Part shown: piece after piece, positions 357-30,601 of the stretch
How the letters are laid out: each line of letters opens with the position of its first letter
Position numbering within the stretch: the first letter of the stretch is position 1
IMG/VR virus record: IMGVR_UViG_3300048003_000282
Location: 1 to 30,730 of that record
Direction: 5' to 3' (one strand)
DNA length: 30,730 nt
DNA from: a virus
Translations under genes and position numbers: made by a program
The notes under the pieces: model-generated
Told to the model about the DNA's origin: nothing
The model's input: only the letters and a program-made list of their open reading frames with translations
The model's database searches: none

Positions 357-710
357 ATGCAAATATTAACTACAAGTGGCACACGAATTATTAACTTTAT
401 ACCAAGAGAAACAATTTTAGGTACTAAAACTTATAAATTAGTGATAAAGTCAGAAGCTCAAAATAAAGTTTTATTTACAGATGTTAATGCAACATTTGCT
501 GAATTAGATTACTATTATCAATATTCAACTACTCAAGCATTAATTGAAAACAATTACTATACTATTACAATCACTAATACAACAGATAACGCAATAATTT
601 TTAAAGACAAAATGTATTGTTCAGACCAAACACTTTCAGACTATGAAATATCAAACGGTGTTTATATAGAACAAAGCACAGGAGACAATCAATTTATATA
701 TTATGGATAA
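357..710 (+). CDS. Conserved phage protein of unknown function upstream of the portal gene
   Basis: This is a 117-residue protein with no signal peptide or membrane segment. It alternates short beta-prone stretches such as YKLVIKS and YYTITITN, consistent with a small all-beta structural protein. I recall proteins of this length with a similar C-terminal IYKDKIFC-like segment (here IIFKDKMYC) directly ahead of the portal in other Bacteroidetes phages. A neck or head-decoration role is therefore plausible but unproven. It starts right after the terminator at 316-345. Its stop overlaps the portal start by 8 bases, which suggests translational coupling. The leader is a run of A's with no Shine-Dalgarno sequence. 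Confidence 0.75.
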   Translation: MQILTTSGTRIINFIPRETILGTKTYKLVIKSEAQNKVLFTDVNATFAELDYYYQYSTTQALIENNYYTITITNTTDNAIIFKDKMYCSDQTLSDYEISNGVYIEQSTGDNQFIYYG

Positions 711-2487
711 TCTACATTTAATACAATTAGGTCAATACGAAAGGCCAACAATCACAGAAGAACGCAACAAAGATTGGGTTTCAATAGGCGATAACAATGA
801 TTATTACCAAAGTTTAATAGATGCTTATATGGATAGCACAACCAATAATGCTGTAATTAATGGTGTTGTTAATCAAATTTATGGAAAAGGATTAGATGCT
901 ACTGATTCTGCACAAAAGCCAGACCAGTATGCACAAATGAGGAGTTTAGTAAAACCTCACGATTTAAGAAATGTTTGCCAAGATTTAAAACTATTAGGCG
1001 AAGCTGCTTTTCAAATAACTTATAATGGTAATAAAATATCAGCAATAACACATTTTCCAAGAGAAACCTTACGTGCTGAAAAAATGAATGATAAAGGCGA
1101 AATAAAAAACTATTTTTATTCTGCTGATTGGAGTAAAGTAAAACACAATACTAAACTAAAAAAGTTTCCTGTTTTTGGTAGTGGCGCACAAAATGAGATA
1201 TTTATTATTAAAAGATATGTAACTGGTTTTTATTATTATAGTCCAGCAGATTATAATACTGCTTATGCTACACTTGAAGATGAGATAGCGTGTTATTTAA
1301 TTAATGATACTCAGAATGGCTTTAGTGGTACAAAGGTGGTGAACTTTAATAATGGTGTACCAGATCGCGAGAAACAACTTGCTATTAAGAATGATGTAAT
1401 GAATAAGCTCACTGGTAGCTACGGGGAAAAAGTAATTGTTGCATTTAACAATAATGCAGAAAGTAAAACAACTGTTGAGGATATACCACTAAATGATGCT
1501 CCTGCACATTACACTTATTTAAGTGAAGAATGTAGTAGAAAAATTATGTTAACTCACAGAGTAACATCACCATTATTATTAGGTTTATCTTCTGCTAATG
1601 GCTTTTCTTCTAATGCTGATGAAATAGAGAACGCCTCACGCCTTTTTAATAACGTAGTTATACAACCATACCAAAACCTTTTAATTGATAGCTTAGATGC
1701 AATATTAGCAGTAAATGATATTAGTTTAAATCTTTACTTTAAAACTATTGAACCACTTGAGTTTATGGATTTAGAGAATGTTGAAGGTAAAGAAAACATT
1801 GAAGAACAAACTGGAATAAAAGAAGAAGAAGAAAGCACAGAGCTTGAAATAATGGCTTCTAAGAGCGTTTCAAACAAAGATAGTGATGAACTACTAAAAA
1901 ATGCTTTAGATTCGCTTAAAGGCGTTAAAATGGATACTAAAGAGTTTGAAATAGTTGATATTAGAGATTTAGATGATGAAAATGAAAGTGTTGAGGATTG
2001 GGCTAAATCAATGATACAATTAAGTGATGTTGTAGATAGTAAAGAAGATGGTTTTTCTACTTTAGATAAATCAATGTATAAAGTAAGATACAAGTACGCA
2101 AAAGGTAGTAGTAGAGGTGGAGAAAGCAGAGAGTTTTGTAAAGAGATGATGAGCAGAACAAGTGCTGGTATTGTATATAGATTAGAAGATATAGATAAGG
2201 CAAGCAGAAATATGAACTTTAAAGCTGCTAAATTACCAATGCACAAAGGTCAAAAGTATGATTTGTTTAAATTTAAAGGTGGTGTTTATTGTAGACACAA
2301 ATGGCAACAGATTTTATACAAAATTAAAAAAGGAAAAGAAGCTGGTAGTGATGATTTAGATGATTACAAAAAAAGTAAAACTATTCCTAAAAGTTACGAA
2401 CCAAAGCCAAGAGGTAGAAAACAAGCAGTAAAAGCTCCAGTAAATATGCCTAATAATGGACATCACCCAAATTATACAGGAAAATGA
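703..2487 (+). CDS. Portal protein with a C-terminal extra domain
   Basis: This 594-residue protein would form the dodecameric ring at the capsid vertex through which DNA enters and leaves. Residues 1 to about 360 have the organisation of Bacteroidetes phage portals: an N-terminal NKDWVSIGDNNDYYQSLIDAY segment, a mixed alpha/beta clip-like middle and a helical stretch near LTHRVTSPLLLGL. A low-complexity acidic linker (about 365-440) follows. The C-terminal region (about 465-545) carries SREFCKEMM, YRLEDI and YDLFKFKGGVYCRHKWQQ, a domain I have seen attached to portal or minor head proteins in related phages. The tail is basic. The gene overlaps its neighbours on both sides and sits with the connector gene at 2484. 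The portal call is by family resemblance and size; the function of the C-terminal domain is unknown. Confidence 0.75.
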   Translation: MDNLHLIQLGQYERPTITEERNKDWVSIGDNNDYYQSLIDAYMDSTTNNAVINGVVNQIYGKGLDATDSAQKPDQYAQMRSLVKPHDLRNVCQDLKLLGEAAFQITYNGNKISAITHFPRETLRAEKMNDKGEIKNYFYSADWSKVKHNTKLKKFPVFGSGAQNEIFIIKRYVTGFYYYSPADYNTAYATLEDEIACYLINDTQNGFSGTKVVNFNNGVPDREKQLAIKNDVMNKLTGSYGEKVIVAFNNNAESKTTVEDIPLNDAPAHYTYLSEECSRKIMLTHRVTSPLLLGLSSANGFSSNADEIENASRLFNNVVIQPYQNLLIDSLDAILAVNDISLNLYFKTIEPLEFMDLENVEGKENIEEQTGIKEEEESTELEIMASKSVSNKDSDELLKNALDSLKGVKMDTKEFEIVDIRDLDDENESVEDWAKSMIQLSDVVDSKEDGFSTLDKSMYKVRYKYAKGSSRGGESREFCKEMMSRTSAGIVYRLEDIDKASRNMNFKAAKLPMHKGQKYDLFKFKGGVYCRHKWQQILYKIKKGKEAGSDDLDDYKKSKTIPKSYEPKPRGRKQAVKAPVNMPNNGHHPNYTGK

Positions 2488-2987
2488 GTAAAGCACTATT
2501 TGTAACAAGACACGATATTTCAGTATTTACTGCTGCTAATGGTTCGATTGACCCAGACCGTTTACTAAATTTTATAAACCAAGCACAAGATATACACATA
2601 CAAAATTACTTAGGTACTGAGTTATATGTTAAAATACAAAATGAAATAACTGCTGGTACTTTAGCAAATCCTTACTTAGCTTTATTAAACGATTATATTA
2701 AACCAATGCTATTACATTGGAGTATGGTAGAATACTTACCTTACGCTGGTGTTAATATTTCTAATGGTGGTATATATACTAAGAATCCTGAAAATAGCAC
2801 AGCACTAAGTAAAGAACACGTAGATAGCTTAATTGAAAGAAGCAGAACTACAGCACAGTTTTACACAAATAGATTTATAGATTTTATGCAAAATAACGCA
2901 GCTGGATTAATACCTGAGTATTATAGTAATTCTCAAGAGGATATGTATCCAGATGATGTTGCAGATTTTGGAGGTTGGGTACTTTAA
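2484..2987 (+). CDS. Head-tail connector-like protein (DUF6712-type)
   Basis: This 167-residue, mostly helical protein begins ALFVTRHDISVFTAANGSID and contains AQDIHIQNYLGTELY. It ends DVADFGGWVL. This pattern matches, from memory, a small family (DUF6712) next to portal genes in Bacteroidetes phages. It is equivalent in position to the HK97 gp6-type connectors that join the portal ring to the tail. The ATG at 2484 overlaps the portal stop (ATGA), so translation is probably coupled. There is no membrane segment. I am confident in the family and moderately confident in the connector role. Confidence 0.72.
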   Translation: MSKALFVTRHDISVFTAANGSIDPDRLLNFINQAQDIHIQNYLGTELYVKIQNEITAGTLANPYLALLNDYIKPMLLHWSMVEYLPYAGVNISNGGIYTKNPENSTALSKEHVDSLIERSRTTAQFYTNRFIDFMQNNAAGLIPEYYSNSQEDMYPDDVADFGGWVL

Positions 2988-2996
2988 AAATATATT

Positions 2997-5009
2997 ATGC
3001 CAGATAATAACATAGAATGGGGACAAGGTGGTGTGAACAACAACAACGATTGGGGAAAAGCAAAAGCTAATTCTACCAATAACTTTGGTGCTGTTTATGA
3101 TAGTTCGCCAAGTGGTGATACTAATATTGCTGGAGGGCAACCTGTTGTTTCAATAACTTATTCTGCAAGTACTTTTTGTGCTGATGCAAGCGACCCTACA
3201 CCAACTATACAAAATAATGCTGGTGTTGGAACATTTAGCTCTACTACTGGATTAGTATTTATTAGCACAACAACTGGTGAAGTTGATATTGATGCTTCTA
3301 CTGTAGGAAGTTATTTAATTACTTATACAGATACAGATGCTGCAACTGCAACATATAACTTTACTATTAATGCTTTACCAACTGTTATTGTAAGTACTTC
3401 TGCTGGTACTATTTGTAATGGTGAAAGCACAACATTAACTGCAAGTGGTGCTTCTACTTATGTATGGAATGATGGTAATACAGATAATCCAAGAACAGTA
3501 ACACCAACTACTACAACTACATTTAATGCAACAGGTACAGATTCTAATGGTTGTACAAGTTCTGGTGGAACTACAATTACTGTAAATGCATTACCAACTG
3601 TTGAAATATCTGGTACTTTAACTTATTGTGTTGGTAGTACAGCAACACTAACTGCTACTGCTGGTTTATCTTCATACTTATGGAGTACTGGAGCAACTAC
3701 ACAAGCTATAAATGTAACTGCTGGTAGTTATACAGTAACAGGAACTGATAGCAATGGTTGTAGTGCTACTTCTTCTGCTTCTACAGTAACTGAATTACCT
3801 TTAGATGTTGCAACAGTTGTTTATGATTCAAGTGCTTACTGTCAAATGCCTACTGGTGCTACTGCTGTAGATGGTTATTACCCACTTTATTCAACTGCTT
3901 CTGCTGCAAATGCAGTAAGTTCTGATGGAACAAATCATACTCACGTATTAGGCGGTGTTACTTACTATATGCCAAATGCTGGGGTAATTGCATATCACGG
4001 AACTTATTCTTTAACTACACCAGCACCAACAATAACTGGTCAAAGTGGTACATTTAGCGAATCTACTGGAAACCTAAGTATTGATAGTTCAACTGGTGTT
4101 ATTACTTTAAACAGTTCAACTGCTGGAACTTATACAGTTGTATATACTACAAATGGAACTTGCCCTAATACAGTAAATAATACTATTACAGTAAATGCTT
4201 TAGATGGCGCAACATTTGGTTATTCTGCAAGCAGTTTACCACAAACAGGAACAGCAAGTTTAACAACTACGCCAACAACTTCAGGTGGTGTTTATAGTGC
4301 TTATCCAAGTGGATTAAGTATTAATTCTTCTACTGGTGAAATAGATTTAGCTAATTCAACTATTCAATCATATAAAGTATTCTATGTTACAAGTGCTGGA
4401 TGTCCTAACTCTTCAACATTTGATTTAGCTGTAACTGCTGCTGGAATTGCTAATAATTACAGTATGAGCTTTGATGGAATTAATGACCGTTTAGCACCAA
4501 TTCAACAACCAGCATTGGATGGAGTAAGTGCTGTAAGTGTTTCTTTATGGTTTAATTACAACTCTGTTGGAGGTGCTAAAAATATGATTCTTACAAATGG
4601 TTTTGGCTGGTATATCCATTTAAGTTCTGCTACTAATCTTGATTATTATAATACTTCATCAAATAATATAACTGTTTCAACAAGTGCAAATACTTGGTAT
4701 CATTTAGCAATCGTACACAATGGAACAAGTTTAGAAGTTTGGCTTAATGGCACATCGTTGGGAACTACGACTACAAACACGCCTAGAAACAATATAGGAC
4801 AAACACTATCGGTTGGTGCATATAGGTATTTAAATGGAACTTTCGGCTATTATTGGGATGGAAAACTTGACGAGATAGGAATTTGGAACACAGCTCTAAC
4901 ATCAACACAAGTACAGGAGATATACAACGCAAAAGGAACTAATTTAACTAAAGACTTAACTACAGTAGCAGGTTCAAACCTAAAGTACTGGAATAGAATG
5001 GGAGATTAA
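2997..5009 (+). CDS. Virion fibre/adhesin with Ig-like domains and a C-terminal LamG-like domain
   Basis: This is a 670-residue, Thr/Ser/Gly/Asn-rich protein without a signal peptide. The N-terminus (NNIEWGQGGVNNNNDWG) is one I recognise as conserved among Bacteroidetes phage fibres, and it is probably the virion-attachment part. About five beta-sandwich Ig-like modules follow. Those at about 126-265 end in the TDSNGC signature typical of surface adhesins of Bacteroidetes hosts. A central segment (about 270-345) has YYPLY and THVLGGVTYYMPN motifs found in other marine phage structural proteins. Residues 488-655 form a LamG/concanavalin-type jelly roll, starting SMSFDGINDRL and ending LDEIGIWNTALTSTQVQEIY. 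The protein most likely binds a glycan receptor on the host. The base composition of the 3' quarter differs from the rest, suggesting domain exchange. Confidence 0.75.
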   Translation: MPDNNIEWGQGGVNNNNDWGKAKANSTNNFGAVYDSSPSGDTNIAGGQPVVSITYSASTFCADASDPTPTIQNNAGVGTFSSTTGLVFISTTTGEVDIDASTVGSYLITYTDTDAATATYNFTINALPTVIVSTSAGTICNGESTTLTASGASTYVWNDGNTDNPRTVTPTTTTTFNATGTDSNGCTSSGGTTITVNALPTVEISGTLTYCVGSTATLTATAGLSSYLWSTGATTQAINVTAGSYTVTGTDSNGCSATSSASTVTELPLDVATVVYDSSAYCQMPTGATAVDGYYPLYSTASAANAVSSDGTNHTHVLGGVTYYMPNAGVIAYHGTYSLTTPAPTITGQSGTFSESTGNLSIDSSTGVITLNSSTAGTYTVVYTTNGTCPNTVNNTITVNALDGATFGYSASSLPQTGTASLTTTPTTSGGVYSAYPSGLSINSSTGEIDLANSTIQSYKVFYVTSAGCPNSSTFDLAVTAAGIANNYSMSFDGINDRLAPIQQPALDGVSAVSVSLWFNYNSVGGAKNMILTNGFGWYIHLSSATNLDYYNTSSNNITVSTSANTWYHLAIVHNGTSLEVWLNGTSLGTTTTNTPRNNIGQTLSVGAYRYLNGTFGYYWDGKLDEIGIWNTALTSTQVQEIYNAKGTNLTKDLTTVAGSNLKYWNRMGD

Positions 5010-5010
5010 T

Positions 5011-7191
5011 ATGAGTACACAGTTTACAAATAGACAATGGCGTTTGCCTAATGAAGAAAATAAAAGTAAGGTTTCAAACTATTCGCTTTCATTTGATGGG
5101 AGTGGTATTGTAACTGTACCAACTAATAATTCTTTTGCTTTTGGTACTGGTGGTTTTACAATTAATGTTTGGGTAAAAATAACAAGTGATTTAGGAGATA
5201 AAGGCATTCTTGATTTTAGAGGCGTTGCTGGAAGCTCTAATGCTGGTGCTTTGTGGAAAAACCCAGACGAAACTTTGTCTTGGTACACTTTAGGCCAAGT
5301 TTGCACAACATCAACTGCACTTTCTTTAAATACTTGGTATTTTATAACAGTTTTAAATACAGGTTCTAATACATCAATTTATATAAATGGCACATCTGAT
5401 GCAAGCGGCTCAGACTCCGTTAACTACTCTGCCACAAACCTTAAAATTGGAGACCACCACGCATACAGCGCATATAAACTTGTTGCTAAATTAGACGCTT
5501 TATCCATTTTTAATTACCCTCTTTCTTCAAGCCAAGTAACAACTCTTTATGGTTCAAGCTCTACTGGTATAGGAAACCCGATGAGTTTATCTCCAAAGCC
5601 AGTTGCTTACTATCCTTTAGGTGACCAAGATGCTTTTAATGGAGCAGATTATTTAGTGCCTAATAGTTCTTTAAAAGATTATGTTTTTGATTTTGGAAGT
5701 AATGGAACTTCTCACGTTGCTTTAGGTTTAAATTCTGCACTTCCAACAACTGCTATTTCAATTTCTTTCTGGGCAAAAGCAACTGTTGATAGCCAAAGCT
5801 ATAAAATGATTTATTTAGCTGACAAAGGAGCACAAGGTTCTTCTGACGTAGCTATATATATATGCCCTACAGGAGGAAGTAGTGTAACTGTTAAAATTGC
5901 TACAGACACAGGCTTTGCACAACCAGCAACAGCAGCTGTTTTTAATGATAACAAATGGCACCACGTGGTAGCAACTTGGAATGGTTCTCTATTAAGCATT
6001 TATACAGATAATGACGTTTCAAATCCTAATACAGCTTCTTTAAGTGGAACGATTTCTTACAATACTACTACATCTCCAAAAGCTTTTATAGGTACTAACC
6101 CAAATAGTTTATCAAGTTTTTTTCAAGGTAATGTTAGTAATTTCCAAATATTTAGCACAGCACTACCAGCAACAGGTTCTAATTCAGTAGAAACTCTTTA
6201 CAATAATGGTTCTCCTCTTACTTCAATGACGGGATTTACTTCTTTGGTTTCTTGGTATAAATTAGATGCTTCTGATACTTATGATTCTTCTACAGGAAAT
6301 TGGACGATTGAAGACCACGCTGGTTCTAACGATGGCACAAGCTCAGGAATGACACAAGCCAATTTAGTACAAAGTGATTTAAGTTTTACAAGTGGTTACT
6401 CTCCGTATGCATTACAGCTGGATGGAACAGATGACTACATTAATTGTGGACATATAAATTTAACAGGTGCTTTTTCTTTAAGTTTTTGGACTAAGTACAC
6501 AACAACATCAGTAGTTAATGTAATAACACAAAACAATTCTGGAGAAGCTACATTTGGAATGTATCAACTTACAGATGGTAAAATTAGATTTTGGGTTACA
6601 AGTTCAGGTAGTTATAATGCTTCAAATGAAATAACAGCTAATACTGCGACAAATAATGGAAATTGGAATAATATTATTTTAATTAATGATGGTACTAATT
6701 TAAAAATTTATATAAATGGAAGTTTAGACAACTCAAGTTCTAATGGTGTTTCATCTCCGTATAATGGAACTGCAAATTTTTGGATTGGCGGAGTTGAAGC
6801 TGGTGGAAGTACATTTAATGGTTCTATTTCAAATGTATCTGTTTGGAATACAGCTTTAACATCTTCACAGGTATCAGAAATTTATAATGAAGGAGTACCA
6901 TCTAATCTAAACAACCATAGTGCATATTCAAACTTAGTTAGCTGGTGGCAGTTGGGAAGTAATAGTTCTTTTAATACTAACTGGACTGTTTTAGATGAAA
7001 AAGGTAGCAATAATGGAACTTCTGCAAATATGACTGAGGATGATATTGTAGATGGTGTAAATACCTATGGAGGAGGAACAAGTTCTGGAATGGGTGGAGA
7101 TGAAGTTATTGGAGATGCACCTTACAGTACATCAAATTCTCTTAGTGTGAATATGGATGTAGAAGATAGAGTTACAGATACACCAAGTTAA
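5011..7191 (+). CDS. Receptor-binding/fibre protein with three LamG-like domains
   Basis: This is a 726-residue protein. Three jelly-roll LamG/concanavalin-like domains are visible at about 23-175, 222-400 and 466-630. Each begins with an F/L-D-G or similar strand and closes with an I/V-W-N-x-L-S/T-S-Q-V-x-x-LY helix (for example VSVWNTALTSSQVSEIY). Spacer modules recur after the domains: LVSWYKLDASD...EDHAGSNDG near 415 and LVSWWQLGSNS...DEKGSNNG near 645. These point to internal duplication. The N-terminus (STQFTNRQWRLPNEENKSK) probably anchors it, and the C-terminus (SNSLSVNMDVEDRVTDTPS) resembles a conserved tail of such proteins. It starts one base after the previous stop and presumably acts with that fibre in sugar recognition. 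Confidence 0.75.
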   Translation: MSTQFTNRQWRLPNEENKSKVSNYSLSFDGSGIVTVPTNNSFAFGTGGFTINVWVKITSDLGDKGILDFRGVAGSSNAGALWKNPDETLSWYTLGQVCTTSTALSLNTWYFITVLNTGSNTSIYINGTSDASGSDSVNYSATNLKIGDHHAYSAYKLVAKLDALSIFNYPLSSSQVTTLYGSSSTGIGNPMSLSPKPVAYYPLGDQDAFNGADYLVPNSSLKDYVFDFGSNGTSHVALGLNSALPTTAISISFWAKATVDSQSYKMIYLADKGAQGSSDVAIYICPTGGSSVTVKIATDTGFAQPATAAVFNDNKWHHVVATWNGSLLSIYTDNDVSNPNTASLSGTISYNTTTSPKAFIGTNPNSLSSFFQGNVSNFQIFSTALPATGSNSVETLYNNGSPLTSMTGFTSLVSWYKLDASDTYDSSTGNWTIEDHAGSNDGTSSGMTQANLVQSDLSFTSGYSPYALQLDGTDDYINCGHINLTGAFSLSFWTKYTTTSVVNVITQNNSGEATFGMYQLTDGKIRFWVTSSGSYNASNEITANTATNNGNWNNIILINDGTNLKIYINGSLDNSSSNGVSSPYNGTANFWIGGVEAGGSTFNGSISNVSVWNTALTSSQVSEIYNEGVPSNLNNHSAYSNLVSWWQLGSNSSFNTNWTVLDEKGSNNGTSANMTEDDIVDGVNTYGGGTSSGMGGDEVIGDAPYSTSNSLSVNMDVEDRVTDTPS

Positions 7192-7462: not shown

Positions 7463-7782
7463 ACAATTTAAAAAGTGTAAGAATGGATGACCATAATTTA
7501 TTATTAGCATTAGCTGGTATTATCTCAGCATTTGGAGTGAAGGAAGTTTGGGCAATTATCCAAAAGAAAATGGATATAGGTGCAAAGAAAAATGAACGCG
7601 AAGAAAGTTTATATACAAAACAAATTGAAGTTCTTACTAATAAAATTACACAGCTTGAAACAAAGATTGAATTACTTATTGAGGAAAATATTCAACTAAG
7701 AGTAAAAGTTGTTAAGATGGAAGCACGTTTAATAAATAGTGCTAAAAAAAAAGTAAATAGGAAAAATGAGAAAAGTAAATAA
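7459..7782 (+). CDS. Membrane-anchored coiled-coil protein, possible holin or lysis accessory
   Basis: The protein has 107 residues. Residues about 11-30 (NLLLALAGIISAFGVKEVWA) form one hydrophobic segment. They are followed by a long charged helix with heptad character (residues 50-90, including KIELLIEENIQLRVKV), and the C-terminus is very basic. One membrane anchor plus a coiled coil, placed directly before the amidase gene, fits a holin, an XhlA-type lysis factor or a spanin-like helper. I cannot decide between these. The start overlaps the preceding stop and the gene overlaps the amidase by 17 bases. An alternative start at 7480 (MDDHN) would remove seven residues and leave the membrane segment intact. 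Confidence 0.7.
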   Translation: MNNLKSVRMDDHNLLLALAGIISAFGVKEVWAIIQKKMDIGAKKNEREESLYTKQIEVLTNKITQLETKIELLIEENIQLRVKVVKMEARLINSAKKKVNRKNEKSK

Positions 7783-8278
7783 AATTGTAATACATTGTAC
7801 AGCTACCAAAGAAGGTAACAATGTAAGTCCAGCCACTATAAAAAGATGGCATTTAAACAGGGGTTTTTCAGATATAGGTTATCATTATATTATAGGTATT
7901 GAAGGTAAAATAAATGCTGGTAGGCCTGTATCTCGTTCAGGAGCTCACGTTAAGAACGGAAACAGCGATAGCATCGGAATCTCATATGTTGGTGGCTTAG
8001 ATTCTAATGGTAAAGCCAAAGATACAAGAACAGAAGCGCAAAAAGCATCATTAATTAAAATACTAAAAGTATTAAAAAACATTTATCCACAAGCAAGCAT
8101 TCACGGCCATAGAGATTACTCACCTGACAAAGATGGCGATGGTGTTGAAGAACACGAATTTATGAAACAATGTCCTTGTTTCTCAGCAGAAGTAGAATAT
8201 TTAGAGCTACAACCAAAATCTTTCAAACCAAAATCAAAAAAAGCAAAGGATAAATTAAATGGAAAAAAATCAAACTAA
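7766..8278 (+). CDS. Endolysin: N-acetylmuramoyl-L-alanine amidase (T7 lysozyme/Amidase_2 family)
   Basis: This 170-residue zinc amidase would cut the bond between N-acetylmuramic acid and L-alanine in peptidoglycan at the end of infection. The N-terminal KIVIHCTAT supplies the first zinc ligand (His10). The SIHGHRDYSPDKDGDGV segment contains His113 and His115, one of them the second ligand. KQCPCF supplies Cys136. The spacing and length match the single-domain T7-type enzymes. The last 20 residues are Lys-rich and may aid binding to the wall. No signal peptide is present, so it needs a holin, for which candidates lie on both sides (7459 and 8369). Confidence 0.92.
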   Translation: MRKVNKIVIHCTATKEGNNVSPATIKRWHLNRGFSDIGYHYIIGIEGKINAGRPVSRSGAHVKNGNSDSIGISYVGGLDSNGKAKDTRTEAQKASLIKILKVLKNIYPQASIHGHRDYSPDKDGDGVEEHEFMKQCPCFSAEVEYLELQPKSFKPKSKKAKDKLNGKKSN

Positions 8279-14514: not shown

Positions 14515-14750
14515 GATACACATACAAAGACATAGAAAAGTTTATGCAGTTTACAAGTTGGACTGATAAACAAAAAATAGATGAATTATTAAGAATAGAT
14601 TGCTCATTATATGCGCATCTAGGTACAGATTCAACTAAAGGAGAAAAAGATGAAGTTAAAAGAAGAAGTATAGAAATATACAGAACAATTAAAACACTAA
14701 ATAAACAATTAGGTGATGAATTATTATACTCAGAAGATTTAAAACAATGA
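14511..14750 (+). CDS. Small conserved protein between helicase and methyltransferase
   Basis: This 79-residue helical protein contains YKDIEKFMQFTSWTDKQKI, then LRIDCSLYAHLGTDSTKGE and VKRRSIEIYRTIK. I recall this family in flavobacterial phages after the helicase gene, with no function given. It overlaps both neighbours by ATGA. A helicase accessory or small DNA-binding protein is possible. Confidence 0.7.
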   Translation: MRYTYKDIEKFMQFTSWTDKQKIDELLRIDCSLYAHLGTDSTKGEKDEVKRRSIEIYRTIKTLNKQLGDELLYSEDLKQ

Positions 14751-15412
14751 AAATTACTAACGAAGATAATATGGATTTAATGGCAAGGTATGAAGATAAC
14801 TACTTTGACCTTGCAATAGTTGACCCACCGTATGGGATTGGATTTGATGGTAATACAACCGTAAAAGGTAAAGCAGGGAAGGCAAATACATTTTCAAATA
14901 AACAACACCACGAGAAAAAAGGTTGGGATAATAAAAGACCCTCTTTAGAATACTTTACGGAATTACAAAGAGTAAGCAAAAAACAAATAATTTGGGGAGG
15001 TAATTACTTTGCTGATTTATTACCTGCAAAAAAAGGATGGGTTTATTGGGATAAGAAAATAACAAACGCAAAAAATACAAATTACTCTGATGGCGAATTG
15101 GCTTGGACTTCTTTTGATTGCGTTTTAAGAAAATTTACTTATGATTGGATAGGGTTTGGATACTTAAATAACCCACAAAGACAAAAGAAAATACACCCAA
15201 CAGAAAAACCAATTTCATTATACGAATGGCTTTTAATGAATTACGCTAAAGAGGGAGATAAGATACTTGATACACATTTAGGTAGTGGAAGCATAGCAAT
15301 AGCTTGTCACAATTTAGGTTTTGATTTAACAGCTTGTGAATTAGATACTGAATACTATGAAGCAGCTATGAAAAGAATAGAACAACACAAACAACAAATA
15401 AGAATGTTTTAA
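14747..15412 (+). CDS. DNA methyltransferase (beta-class, DPPY)
   Basis: This is a 221-residue amino-methyltransferase that would transfer a methyl group from SAM to adenine N6 or cytosine N4. The catalytic motif DPPYG is at 26-30, HPTEKP (motif X region) at 150-155 and the SAM-binding motif I DTHLGSGS at 175-182. The order, catalytic motif before the SAM motif, is that of the beta class. Motif I is DTHLGSGS rather than the usual DPFxGxG form. No restriction partner is adjacent, so it is likely an orphan enzyme that protects phage DNA from host restriction or marks it for another step. Confidence 0.88.
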   Translation: MKITNEDNMDLMARYEDNYFDLAIVDPPYGIGFDGNTTVKGKAGKANTFSNKQHHEKKGWDNKRPSLEYFTELQRVSKKQIIWGGNYFADLLPAKKGWVYWDKKITNAKNTNYSDGELAWTSFDCVLRKFTYDWIGFGYLNNPQRQKKIHPTEKPISLYEWLLMNYAKEGDKILDTHLGSGSIAIACHNLGFDLTACELDTEYYEAAMKRIEQHKQQIRMF

Positions 15413-18722: not shown

Positions 18723-19664
18723 ATGAAATTATACAAAGGAGATTGCTTAATTGAAAGCGATAAAATAGAAAGTGGAAGCGTTGATTTAATATTGACCGAT
18801 TTACCTTATGGAACTGTTAAAGGTTTAGGAGGTGATATAAAGAAGTATGAACGTCTTTCTAATAGTGATTGGGATAATGTAATAGACACCAATAAAATAA
18901 TGCAGATAGCAAACCGTATATTAAGAAAAAACGGTAAAATGATTTTAACTGCAAACCAACCTTTTACAACAGAATTAATAGGCAAAGCAATACCAAACGT
19001 ACCACATTGTTATAATATGTATTGGGATAAAATGCACTTTGCAAATTGTTTAGTGGCTAACAAAGCACCTGTAAGTTATATTGAAGATATTTTGGTTTTT
19101 AGTAAAACACATCAATTAAAAGTTGATAATCATTTAAGGGATTATATGAGGGAAGAAAGACAAAAAGTAAAAGAAGCAGGTTATAAGGATAGAGATTTAA
19201 GAATAATGTGTGGATTGAGTTTAAAAGGTGGTGGTATGTTAGGGCATTATTGGGGTAGGGAACAGTGGACTATGCCGACAGAAAAGCATTACACTACATT
19301 ACAAGAAACAGGTTTTTTTAAAAAACCATACTCAGAACTAAAAAAAGATTATGAAGATTATAAAAAAAGTTTTGAGAGTACCTTTAATTTATGGGAAGGT
19401 AACAAATACAAAAGCAATATTCTAAAATACAAAAAAGATTATGACGGACACCACCCAACTCAAAAGCCTGTATTATTGTTAGAGGATTTAATAAAAACTT
19501 TTAGCAATGAAAATGATTTAGTAGTTGATTTGACTATGGGTAGTGGCTCAACAGGTGTAGCGTGTAAGAATACAAACAGGAACTTCATAGGAATAGAACA
19601 AGATGAAAACTATTTTAATATAGCACAACAAAGAATTAAAGCAGCAGAATATAAATTGTTTTAA
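18723..19664 (+). CDS. DNA methyltransferase with a variable recognition insert (DLPY)
   Basis: This is a 313-residue beta-class amino-methyltransferase. The catalytic motif is DLPYG (26-30), a variant of DPPY. HPTQKP is at 244-249 and motif I DLTMGSGSTG at 269-278. Between them, residues about 135-225 form an insert with HYWGREQWTMPTEKHYTTLQ and KPYSELKKDYEDYK, probably the target recognition domain. Genes in this position vary between related phages, and it separates the terminase from the tail genes. It is followed by the noncoding module copy and a separate promoter. It is likely an acquired anti-restriction gene, and is unlike the shorter methyltransferase at 14747 except in the core motifs. 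Confidence 0.85.
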   Translation: MKLYKGDCLIESDKIESGSVDLILTDLPYGTVKGLGGDIKKYERLSNSDWDNVIDTNKIMQIANRILRKNGKMILTANQPFTTELIGKAIPNVPHCYNMYWDKMHFANCLVANKAPVSYIEDILVFSKTHQLKVDNHLRDYMREERQKVKEAGYKDRDLRIMCGLSLKGGGMLGHYWGREQWTMPTEKHYTTLQETGFFKKPYSELKKDYEDYKKSFESTFNLWEGNKYKSNILKYKKDYDGHHPTQKPVLLLEDLIKTFSNENDLVVDLTMGSGSTGVACKNTNRNFIGIEQDENYFNIAQQRIKAAEYKLF

Positions 19665-25552: not shown

Positions 25553-25686
25553 AAACAATATTAGAAGCATTAGAATTTTGTAAAGAAAATAAATTATATG
25601 ATAAACATATAAAGATAGCATTAGGCATCAATAAAGTACCTATGACTATAAAAGAAGCATTTAACCAAATAAGATTAAGAAGATGA
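25549..25686 (+). CDS. 45-residue basic protein with GTG start between tail-tip and tape measure genes
   Basis: The GTG at 25549 overlaps the preceding stop and the TGA at 25684-25686 overlaps the tape measure start, so it fills the only gap in this operon. The product is helical: KTILEALEFCKENKLYDKHI, then INKVPMTIKEAFNQIRLRR. I do not recognise it. A small tape-measure partner is a fair guess given the tight coupling on both sides. Confidence 0.55.
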   Translation: MKTILEALEFCKENKLYDKHIKIALGINKVPMTIKEAFNQIRLRR

Positions 25687-27626
25687 GTAAAGAAGTTATA
25701 GTAACAGTAAAAGCAGACACTAAAAATGCTCAAACTAATGTAAAAGATCTTAACGAAGATTTAAAAGAAACTAAAACAGATTTATCTGGTATTGAATCTT
25801 CTGCTGACAAAGCCACAGGTGGGTTAATTAGTGGTTTTAAAGGTTCTATTGGTGCTATAAAAGGAGTAGTAAAAGGTTTTAAAACATTAAGAGGAGCAAT
25901 TATTGCTACAGGAATTGGTGCTTTAGTCGTTGTTGTTTCATCGTTAATGGCTGCATTTACAGATAGTGAAGAAGGAGCAAATAAGTTAAGTAAAATTTTA
26001 GGTGTTCTTGGTACTGTAGTTGATAATGTTTTAGATTTATTTGCAGATTTTGGAGAAGCTATTATATCAGCTTTTGAAAATCCAAAAGAGGCATTAATGT
26101 CTTTTGTTAACTTATTAAAAAACCAAGTTGTTAATAGAATTAATGGCTTAATGGAATTAATACCAGCTCTTGGCAAAGCAGTTCAATTAGTTTTTAGTGG
26201 TGATTTTTCAGAAGCTGGAAAAGTAGCAACAAATGCAGTAGGGAAAGTTGTTCTTGGTGTTGAAGATGTCACAGAAAAAATACAGGCGGCAACACAAGCG
26301 ACTAAAGAATTTATTGCAGAAAACATTGAAGAAGCAAAAAAAGCAGCAGATGTAGCTGATATGAGAGCTAAAGCTGCGAAACTTGAAAGAGAACTATTAG
26401 TTGAACGTTCTATACTTGAAAGTAAAATTGCTGACTTAAGGTTAAAATCAAGACAAGAAGAAGAATTTACTGCTGCACAAAGAAAACAATTTTTATTAGA
26501 TGCACAGAAACTTGAAGATGGTTTACTTACAAAAGAGACAGAAGTTCTTGAATTAAGAAGAAAAGCACAAGAAGATGAAAATGAATTTGCAAGAAGTAAT
26601 ATTGAAGCTCTTGACAAATTAGCAGAAGCAGAAGCAGCAGTAAATAGACAATCAGCAATAAGGTTAAACCAACAAAGAACTACACAAAGAGAGTTAAATA
26701 CTCTTAATAAACAAATACAAGCAGAAAATAAAAGAATTGCTAATGAGAAAAAAGCTCAAGATGATGCAGAATTAAAAAGAAAACAAGAAGCACTTAAAGC
26801 AGATGAAAAAGCAAGAGCAATTAAAAAAGCTGCTGATGAAAAAGCTCAAAAAGAAGAATTAGAAAGAGCAAAAAAACAAAGTCTTGACTTGCAAATGTTA
26901 AGGAACACAGATTTAGAAAACGAACTTTTAGAGTTACAAATACAATATGATAAAAAAATAGAATTAGCTAAGGGAAATAATGCACTAATTGAAGCTCTTA
27001 AAAAAGAACATTTAGAAAAAGTTGCAGGTATAGAAAATAATTCCAGAGAAAAAGAAAGACAAGCTAAATTGCAAGCTGCTAATGATGCTTTGGATATAGC
27101 TGCTAATAGTTTAAATTCAATTCAATCTTTAGGCGATGCAGCTTTTGCTCATAGAACTAAAAATTTAAAAGAAGGAACGAAAGAACAATTAAAAGCAGCA
27201 AAACAGCAATTTAATTTTAATAAAGCATTGCAATTAGGAATGGCTGTAATTGATGGAGGTAAAGCGATTACTGCTTCTTTAGCTCAATCGCCTCTTTCTA
27301 TCGGCCCACTTCCAAATCCAGCTGGTATTGCCTCTCTTGCTTTTGCAAGTGTTACATCAGCAGCACAGATTGCAATGATAGCAGCGCAAAAGTATGAAGC
27401 ACCTAAAAAAAATACAACTACTGTTTCTCCTCCATCTATTGATAGTGGTGGAGCAAATACTTCTCCAACACAGCCACCAAGTTTTAATGTAGTAGGGCAA
27501 TCAGGATTTAATCAAGTAGCTGGAGCATTAGGACAACAACAACCAATACAAGCATTTGTAGTAGCTGGAGATGTTACCACAGCACAACAACTACAAAACA
27601 ATACAATAACACAAGCAACTTTTTAA
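25683..27626 (+). CDS. Tail tape measure protein
   Basis: This 647-residue protein sets tail length. The N-terminal region (AQTNVKDLNEDLKETKTDLS) and a Gly/Ala-rich helical part (about 45-100, GGLISGFKGSIGAIKGVVKG, ending in a hydrophobic span IGALVVVVSSLMAAFT) are typical. Residues about 215-480 are a long coiled coil rich in Ala, Lys, Glu and Gln. The C-terminal region has another hydrophobic Ala-rich stretch (GIASLAFASVTSAAQIAMIAA) and a Pro/Ser/Thr tail. At about 1.5 angstroms per residue it would give a tail of roughly 100 nm, a known rule of thumb. No lysozyme or peptidase domain is visible. Confidence 0.85.
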   Translation: MSKEVIVTVKADTKNAQTNVKDLNEDLKETKTDLSGIESSADKATGGLISGFKGSIGAIKGVVKGFKTLRGAIIATGIGALVVVVSSLMAAFTDSEEGANKLSKILGVLGTVVDNVLDLFADFGEAIISAFENPKEALMSFVNLLKNQVVNRINGLMELIPALGKAVQLVFSGDFSEAGKVATNAVGKVVLGVEDVTEKIQAATQATKEFIAENIEEAKKAADVADMRAKAAKLERELLVERSILESKIADLRLKSRQEEEFTAAQRKQFLLDAQKLEDGLLTKETEVLELRRKAQEDENEFARSNIEALDKLAEAEAAVNRQSAIRLNQQRTTQRELNTLNKQIQAENKRIANEKKAQDDAELKRKQEALKADEKARAIKKAADEKAQKEELERAKKQSLDLQMLRNTDLENELLELQIQYDKKIELAKGNNALIEALKKEHLEKVAGIENNSREKERQAKLQAANDALDIAANSLNSIQSLGDAAFAHRTKNLKEGTKEQLKAAKQQFNFNKALQLGMAVIDGGKAITASLAQSPLSIGPLPNPAGIASLAFASVTSAAQIAMIAAQKYEAPKKNTTTVSPPSIDSGGANTSPTQPPSFNVVGQSGFNQVAGALGQQQPIQAFVVAGDVTTAQQLQNNTITQATF

Positions 27627-29665: not shown

Positions 29666-30601
29666 ATGGCGACAACAACAAGTATAACAAGTACTTACGC
29701 TGGAGAATTTGCAGGTAAATATATCTCTGCTGCTCTTTTAAGTGCTAACACAATTGATAAAGGCGGTATAGAAGTAATGCCTAATATCAAGTATAAATCT
29801 ACTATGAAAAAAGTAGCTACTGATGCAAACGTAATTAAAGACGCTTCTTGCGATTTTGATGCAACTGCTACAGTAACATTAACTGAAAGATTACTACAAC
29901 CCTCTGAGTACCAAGTAAATATGACTTTTTGCAAGCAAGATTTTGTATCGGATTGGGAAGCTGCTCAAATGGGATATTCTGCATTTGATAAAATGCCACC
30001 TAAATTTTCAGATTTCATTATTGGCCACGTAGCTGGTTTAGTAGCTGAAAAAACTGAATCTAATATTTGGGAAGGTGTTAATGCAAACGCTGGTGAATTT
30101 GATGGGTTAACAACTTTAGCTTTAGCTGATGCTGACGTTATTGATGTAGCATCTCACGCTGCTGTAACTGCTTCTAACGTAATTAATAAATTAGGTTCTA
30201 TTGTTGATGCAGTACCTTCTGCTCTTTACAACAAAGAAGATTTACACATTTACGTATCACAAAACATTGCAAGAGCTTATGTAAGAGCTTTAGGTGGTTT
30301 TGCTACTTCTATTGGTTCAAATGGTGTTAACGCACAAGGGACACAATGGTACAACGCTGGAGGTCAACTATCTTTTGATGGTGTTAAAATCTTCGTTGCT
30401 AATGGATTAGCTGATGATACTGCAATGGCTGCTCAAAAGAGTAACTTATACTTTGGTACTGGTTTATTAAATGATATGAACGAAGTTAAGGTATTAGATA
30501 TGGCTGATCTTGATGGTTCTCAAAATGTGAGAGTTGTTATGAGATATACAAGCGCAGTTAACTACGGAATAGGTTCTGATATAGTTTTATACCACGCCTA
30601 A
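29666..30601 (+). CDS. Major capsid protein (HK97 fold)
   Basis: This is a 311-residue protein. Segments such as YAGEFAGKYISAALLSANTI, GIEVMPNIKYKSTMKKV, CDFDATATVTLTERLL and FSDFIIGHVAGLVAEKTESN match a major capsid family of Bacteroidetes phages. The order of an N-arm, an E-loop-like strand region, then P- and A-domain sequences is that of the HK97 fold. It would form the shell after scaffold removal. It is flanked by the scaffold gene 10 bases upstream and a weak terminator 15 bases downstream, as expected for an abundant product. Confidence 0.85.
   Translation: MATTTSITSTYAGEFAGKYISAALLSANTIDKGGIEVMPNIKYKSTMKKVATDANVIKDASCDFDATATVTLTERLLQPSEYQVNMTFCKQDFVSDWEAAQMGYSAFDKMPPKFSDFIIGHVAGLVAEKTESNIWEGVNANAGEFDGLTTLALADADVIDVASHAAVTASNVINKLGSIVDAVPSALYNKEDLHIYVSQNIARAYVRALGGFATSIGSNGVNAQGTQWYNAGGQLSFDGVKIFVANGLADDTAMAAQKSNLYFGTGLLNDMNEVKVLDMADLDGSQNVRVVMRYTSAVNYGIGSDIVLYHA

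Follow-up and report, generated by a model that had tools for sequence, protein, structure and literature searches.

A putative phage adhesion fibre with host-type Ig-like modules and an exchangeable LamG tip

The gene at positions 2997–5009 of the IMG/VR viral record IMGVR_UViG_3300048003_000282 (30,730 bases, analysed as a whole and called the window) probably encodes a virion adhesion fibre of a long-tailed marine Flavobacteriia phage, with a host-type Ig stalk and an exchangeable LamG tip. A short conserved anchor would fix the fibre to the particle. The Ig-like stalk is of the T9SS surface protein type, was probably taken from Bacteroidota long ago and would space out the tip. The LamG tip has a lectin fold, which suggests binding of a surface glycan. 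The LamG core may be swapped as a cassette between conserved flanks and this would change the specificity. LamG cassettes may also circulate between two adjacent fibre genes, as suggested by the mosaic sequences. The location on the virion and an effect on the host range are predicted. Modular build, conserved place, hypervariable tip and mosaic DNA were directly observed.

Fibre gene, neighbourhood and anchor

The fibre ORF (2997–5009, plus strand) codes for 670 amino acids without an internal stop. A disordered anchor is followed by an Ig-like domain, two Ig_7-type modules, more Ig-like modules and a C-terminal LamG domain, all on the plus strand. The N-terminal anchor with WGQG/NN repeats (residues 1–49, 2997–3143) is predicted to be disordered (pLDDT 29–41). 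Ig-like domain 0 (residues 50–127, 3144–3377) is beta-rich (pLDDT 82–93), with a Bact_surface_Ig-like match below the Pfam cut-off. Module A (3378–3596) ends in NATGTDSNGC and module B (3594–3800) in VTGTDSNGC; the latter motif occurs once in the ORF. Module B is missing from L041, L042, L045 and L048. A tyrosine-rich insert between the Ig modules, YCQMPTGA...GYYPLY (3801–4013), is conserved in the family; the model is of low confidence over residues 281–340 (pLDDT 47–66). Two further Ig-like modules (residues 343–400 and 402–481, 4023–4439) include a Big_3 match below the cut-off at residues 366–399; the second module is of low confidence. The LamG_3 domain (4452–4946; Pfam E 1.6e-18 for residues 505–640) is the putative glycan-binding tip. 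With 67.7 bits against a gathering cut-off of 27.6, it belongs to Laminin_G_3. It contains the hypervariable, exchangeable core (4494–4856) and is followed by a conserved C-terminal tail (4857–5009) with the family consensus DEVAIWNTALTS...NRMGD.

The Ig_7 family (PF19081, CHU_C-associated Ig-like domain) was matched below its gathering score of 27.3, with 17.8 bits in hmmscan and 23.9 bits in the genome search; the hmmscan match of module A covers residues 129–200 (E 0.0042). The modules are hence named Ig_7-type and not counted as Pfam members, and their assignment also leans on AlphaFold and Foldseek. The AlphaFold model, based on 23 sequences, had a mean pLDDT of 71.9 and a pTM of 0.39. 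Residues 51–280 form confident beta-sandwich domains (pLDDT 82–95 in blocks of ten), and LamG is mixed (56–86). The seven best Foldseek matches in the PDB are all pieces of Aureispira GhpA (E 4.9e-17 to 4.5e-11), with low TM-scores because flexible multidomain chains were compared. The LamG tip matched pentraxins. In the viral library, some of the matched proteins bear the names Ig, LamG-like and SprB repeat. The ORF, Pfam, AlphaFold and Foldseek thus confirm the statement of an earlier note, made from the sequence, that VTGTDSNGC-type Ig modules lie between a phage anchor and LamG. The conserved N-terminal anchor and variable C-terminal tip are as expected for a receptor-binding fibre. The sorting domain of T9SS-secreted adhesins was not found at the C-terminus of the phage proteins P0001 and P0002 by NCBIfam and Pfam.

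Upstream of the fibre ORF, a portal protein (703–2487, plus strand; phrog_33693, E 6.9e-80) is followed by a syntenic DUF6712 protein (2484–2987, plus strand; PF20459, E 6.1e-20). Downstream, a second fibre-type gene (5011–7191, plus strand) has three LamG domains (LamG_3, E 2.7e-54, three stretches). After two small ORFs, an amidase (endolysin; 7766–8278, plus strand; PF01510, E 2.5e-14; phrog_822, E 6e-54) ends the block. The window also encodes a terminase, a gene with a virion-structural match (29666–30601) and a weakly tape-measure-like gene (25683–27626) far from the fibre ORF. Given the portal-side neighbourhood, away from the tape-measure-like gene, a neck or head fibre is possible. 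Two DNA methyltransferase genes were also observed (14747–15412 and 18723–19664). Rfam families and tRNAs were not found within the window. The nearest cultured relatives are the Nonlabens phages P12024S/L, according to the portal (31.5% identical to that of P12024S) and the terminase (about 52.5%). On this sequence basis, the virus probably infects marine flavobacteria.

Relatives of the fibre protein are present at 56 viral loci. Many are full length and several are ended by the contig edge; in two (L056 and L057), the relatedness is confined to the Ig part. L002 represents almost the same phage (100% over 7207 bp). A scan with the anchor yielded 235 viral relatives, of which the best 80 were kept. 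Upstream of the anchor, a DUF6712 relative was present in 42 and a portal in 38 of 44 loci (L223–L266; some loci end short upstream). Together with the 56 viral relatives and the sharing of the anchor between phages, this argues against a chance architecture. In the annotated phage collection, the whole fibre protein had no match at 1e-3 and the anchor none at E 1, both with the BLAST low-complexity filter on, which may hide Thr/Ser-rich matches.

The anchor carries different proteins. LamG_3 was detected in 13, DUF285 in five and Ig_7 in four of 24 anchor and family members (E 0.01), a set that includes L030 and L175 with other N-termini. Anchor and LamG are joined without an Ig match in L223 and L228. 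DUF285 repeats replace LamG as the tip on the same anchor in L226, L229, L234, L237 and L239. Nearly half of the anchor ORFs read (19 of 39) are stand-alone anchors of 71–86 amino acids. These (L245–L256 and L260–L266) are mostly located downstream of portal and DUF6712, so the anchor may be a small structural protein that acquired fibres. The gene after one stand-alone anchor (L262:4240–5241) resembles by eye the N-terminus of the P12024S fibre-like protein. This P12024S protein was considered as kin of the anchor and rejected: Pfam gave it no match at 0.001, and BLASTP showed no significant likeness to L229, the sole protein compared.

Variation and exchange of the LamG tip

Across 30 aligned relatives, the column identity in blocks of ten is 0.56–0.92 up to residue 500, drops to 0.13–0.41 at residues 501–620 and returns to 0.70–0.88 afterwards. 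The median pair identity is 36.7% for the tip, 75.0% for the stem and 78.8% for the tail (300 pairs from the 25 of 30 members that split automatically into these parts). Among 150 pairs with stems at least 75% identical, 139 have tips below 45% identity.

The DNA of the window and L028 is mosaic. The tip differs by 10 mismatches in 450 bp (97.8% identity in pairwise comparison), and the LamG core lies inside this common block. Other collinear blocks are 83.9–90.0% identical, including 3200 bp downstream (89.7%) and 1735 bp upstream (87.3%). The stalk module adjoining the tip (4218–4431) is without a match; in the multiple alignment, the last part of the Ig-like stretch 4023–4439 has 59% identity to L028. 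Among viral contigs, the exact 50-base tip pattern was found twice, once with L028 and once with L002. L026 matches the window with 89–95% over blocks of 1.8–4.2 kb, but not in the tip. Whole tip classes differ between L235 and L237: their stems are 90.6% identical over 626 residues, with LamG as the tip in the former (read from the same contig under the id L152) and DUF285 in the latter. The pair of window and L028 is the only clear recent tip transfer between unlike stems at the DNA level. The variation of the tip is the stronger result of the analysis and goes beyond the earlier note, as do the swaps of tip class, the like cassettes of the second gene and the stand-alone anchors.

LamG domains of the first and second gene also resemble each other across loci. 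In a set of 206 domains, 15 cross-gene pairs were 50% identical or more across 100 columns or longer. The highest value, 82%, is that of the first gene of L032 and the second of L008. Some contigs of the set are present under two locus ids, a few domains are from hosts and several of the 15 pairs repeat one contig. The likeness across the two genes could have arisen by duplication instead. In the second gene, the third LamG of the window has its nearest match in the first of L024 (73.6%). A wider scenario seems rather improbable to us: a shared pool of LamG cassettes would move between the two tandem genes via conserved joints and be mounted on a stalk of host origin. The fibre would let the particle stick to polysaccharides grazed by flavobacterial hosts, waiting where the hosts feed.

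Bacterial relatives and origin of the Ig-like modules

A scan of GTDB genomes with a two-module alignment found at least 496 relatives. The best 80 loci were kept, thus selected by likeness to the phage modules. Of their titles, 73 name Bacteroidota (presuming our assignment of the titled genera to this phylum), four have no taxon and three name others (L069, L078 and L104). L104 (genome G003) is titled Glaciecola amylolytica, by name a gammaproteobacterium, and has 136 scored module matches; it may be mislabelled or reflect a large transfer. A module HMM, seeded from the phage family and iterated once, counted modules of at least 50 positions: 1146 in the host set of 80 kept loci and 226 in viruses, besides the two of the window. 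Four viral-classed contigs (L174, L176, L177 and L178) encode long host-like multi-module Ig_7-type proteins. They were not counted in the phage family; host DNA and large phages are both possible sources. Matches to the modules at E 0.001 were present in 119 of the 149 genomes of the family that includes G001, the Flaviramulus-titled genome with L113. A set of 14 control genomes, one of them a Bacteroides, gave no match to the Ig_7 model, so the modules are not present in all Bacteroidota.

Pfam and NCBIfam were run on six long host ORFs, a subset of the 109 module-bearing ORFs in the kept loci. Each of them has a T9SS sorting domain at its end, of type A in five and of type B in one. LamG is present in three, and two reach the Pfam cut-off for Ig_7. 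The phage modules are therefore related to modules of T9SS-secreted host proteins, as the earlier note had proposed for secreted surface proteins of Bacteroidetes. Proteins other than adhesins also carry the modules in hosts: the sulfatase L113 combines LamG and a T9SS sorting domain with Ig_7-type modules, the latter according to the module HMM and not Pfam.

Among the best 80 of at least 496 loci, the best host module is 52.9% identical to module A and 60.3–62.5% to module B. Within the phage family, the best non-identical modules reach 98.6% (A) and 97.1% (B), the top listed ones range over 90–99%, and those of L002 are 100% identical. After the phage's own family, the next-closest homologues are in Bacteroidota-titled genomes, which goes against phage-only relatives of the modules. 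An origin of the modules in phages only was considered and rejected: when 50,697 phage records were searched by tblastn with both modules, a single weak match was obtained (E 0.1), again with the low-complexity filter on, which may hide Thr/Ser-rich matches.

The module tree comprised 109 modules (13 phage, 96 host) over 72 columns, with bootstrap values that did not settle. Module A forms a clade of four phage rows (support 99/95) within a starred clade of 32 host and six phage rows (96/80). Module B forms a clade of four phage rows (98/83) elsewhere in the tree, apart from A, and three phage rows are unplaced. Given the starred branches, the phage label must have changed twice or more. An AU test of a single phage clade was borderline (p=0.0518) and did not reject one phage origin. 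Tree and test favour, without proof, several host-like sources or the capture of an array of unlike modules.

The domain phylogeny thus moderately supports the capture of host domains suggested by the earlier note: the nesting of module A among host modules stands, and the exclusion of a single phage clade is borderline. A host-to-phage direction is likely for the Ig modules because phage modules nest in host modules and the diversity is greater in hosts. With a host identity of at most about 62%, any capture would be old. A foreign composition was considered as a sign of recent capture and rejected. The G+C content is 33–41% in parts of the fibre gene versus 31% for the window. Ig domains 0, A and B (3144–3800) are devoid of G and C at the third position of their 135 fourfold codons, which gives no pointer to recent foreign DNA. 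In ten other genes, 8.3% of 1709 such positions are G or C, and in the LamG core 11.5%. Of 26 members of the family, counting the window and its near copy L002, 20 have a higher share in the tip than in the stem; the stems of L016, L017, L019, L021 and L022 have 12.9–18.1%. That the fibre binds the same polysaccharides as the host proteins, as the earlier note had considered, is speculation. Of six host LamG domains compared, the best is 28.7% identical to the LamG of the window over 150 residues, and another 30.7% over 127; the LamG is also the most variable part of the fibre.

Alternative explanations and known systems

The fibre may be an accessory adhesin on the head or neck. It would hold the particle near hosts or particulate polysaccharide, and a separate tail-tip protein would decide infection. 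This explanation overlaps with the preferred one except for place and role, and we consider it possible, though rather unlikely. The gene is positioned after portal and DUF6712 and at a large distance from the tape-measure-like gene, and the relatives with just the 71–86 amino acid anchor suggest that the adhesive part is dispensable there; however, these phages may have an adhesive domain in the next gene, as may be the case in L262. Gut phages are known to have adhesive Ig-like proteins (PMC13370021). On the other side, entire tip classes are exchanged, as would fit selection for recognition of the host, and the same neighbourhood in P12024S has a gene noted as tail-fibre-like.

Alternatively, the Ig modules spread mainly between phages, and their host likeness is that of an old shared domain family without a specific capture. 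The much closer matches in family phages than in hosts (at most 53% for A and 62% for B) and the borderline AU test are consistent with this. Yet, the modules are abundant in bacterial genomes, the phage records gave the single weak tblastn hit, and module A nests among host modules. We regard this spread as unlikely. The hypervariable C-terminal binding-type domain also recalls a diversity-generating retroelement, but such a source of the tip diversity is barely conceivable. A reverse transcriptase (PF00078) was not found in the window, a record that may be incomplete. The tip varies by length changes and wholesale replacement instead of scattered point changes, and a nearly intact tip block is common to the window and L028. 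An exchangeable tip on a host-type stalk remains our preferred reading.

In this family, anchor, stalk and tip vary separately in a well-sampled natural series. The part that decides attachment can thus be located and tested in uncultured marine Bacteroidota phages. In viral contigs without annotation, the anchor sequence can help to detect fibre genes.

Ig-like domains are widespread among phage structural proteins. A literature search, with few subscription papers in its range, gave no study of flavobacterial phage fibres of the Ig_7/LamG type. The Nonlabens phages P12024S/L share the order of portal, DUF6712 relative and tail-fibre-like gene; in P12024S, the gene two places past the DUF6712 relative is annotated as 'similar to putative tail fiber protein'. 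This protein differs from the fibre family by the aforementioned lack of a Pfam match and of significant likeness to L229. The best structural match, the Aureispira GhpA grappling hook (PDB 9flp and others), shares Ig-like adhesin modules, with a weak sequence match (E 0.0018). Unlike the window fibre, GhpA is a bacterial protein of 5898 residues without a phage anchor. According to the portion of a review available to us, grappling hooks of the GhpA type are made of a T9SS-secreted protein, and SprB and RemA are T9SS-secreted adhesins (PMC11205867).

Host-shared Ig domains in a phage protein are also known from the BACON tandem-repeat proteins of crAss-like phages. As far as the consulted sections describe, these Ig-fold repeats are shared with bacteria and tail-associated in some lineages, and single domains were transferred horizontally between phages and bacteria (PMC6949934). 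BACON is another Ig family of gut phages, and the LamG tip of the window fibre is absent from that partial description (PMC6949934). The Ig_7-type modules are another Ig-type domain family, beside BACON, common to Bacteroidota surface proteins and phages. The Ig-like adhesins of gut phages are likewise modular and from phages of Bacteroidota. In the excerpt consulted, they have BACON, PKD and other Ig-like domains, and their epithelium binding was tested (PMC13370021), whereas the window fibre has a LamG tip and is known from its sequence.

Interchangeable host-recognition genes in near-identical core genomes offer a further parallel (PMC7468147, PMC3909814, both seen in part). The Bacteroidetes 'Cryophage' has flexible, interchangeable host-recognition modules, and T9SS cargo proteins are reported for it as well (PMC7468147). 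Marine phages have metaviromic islands with variable C-terminal fibre parts (PMC3909814). As described in these extracts, the exchange concerns genes of C1q-domain proteins, tail fibres and the like (PMC7468147, PMC3909814). In the window, it concerns just a part of one gene, the LamG core with its roughly 120 residues, and, unlike in those descriptions, similar cassettes are present in the neighbouring gene. Modular phage adhesins and a change of attachment by tip swap are already known; the window fibre is a clear new example.
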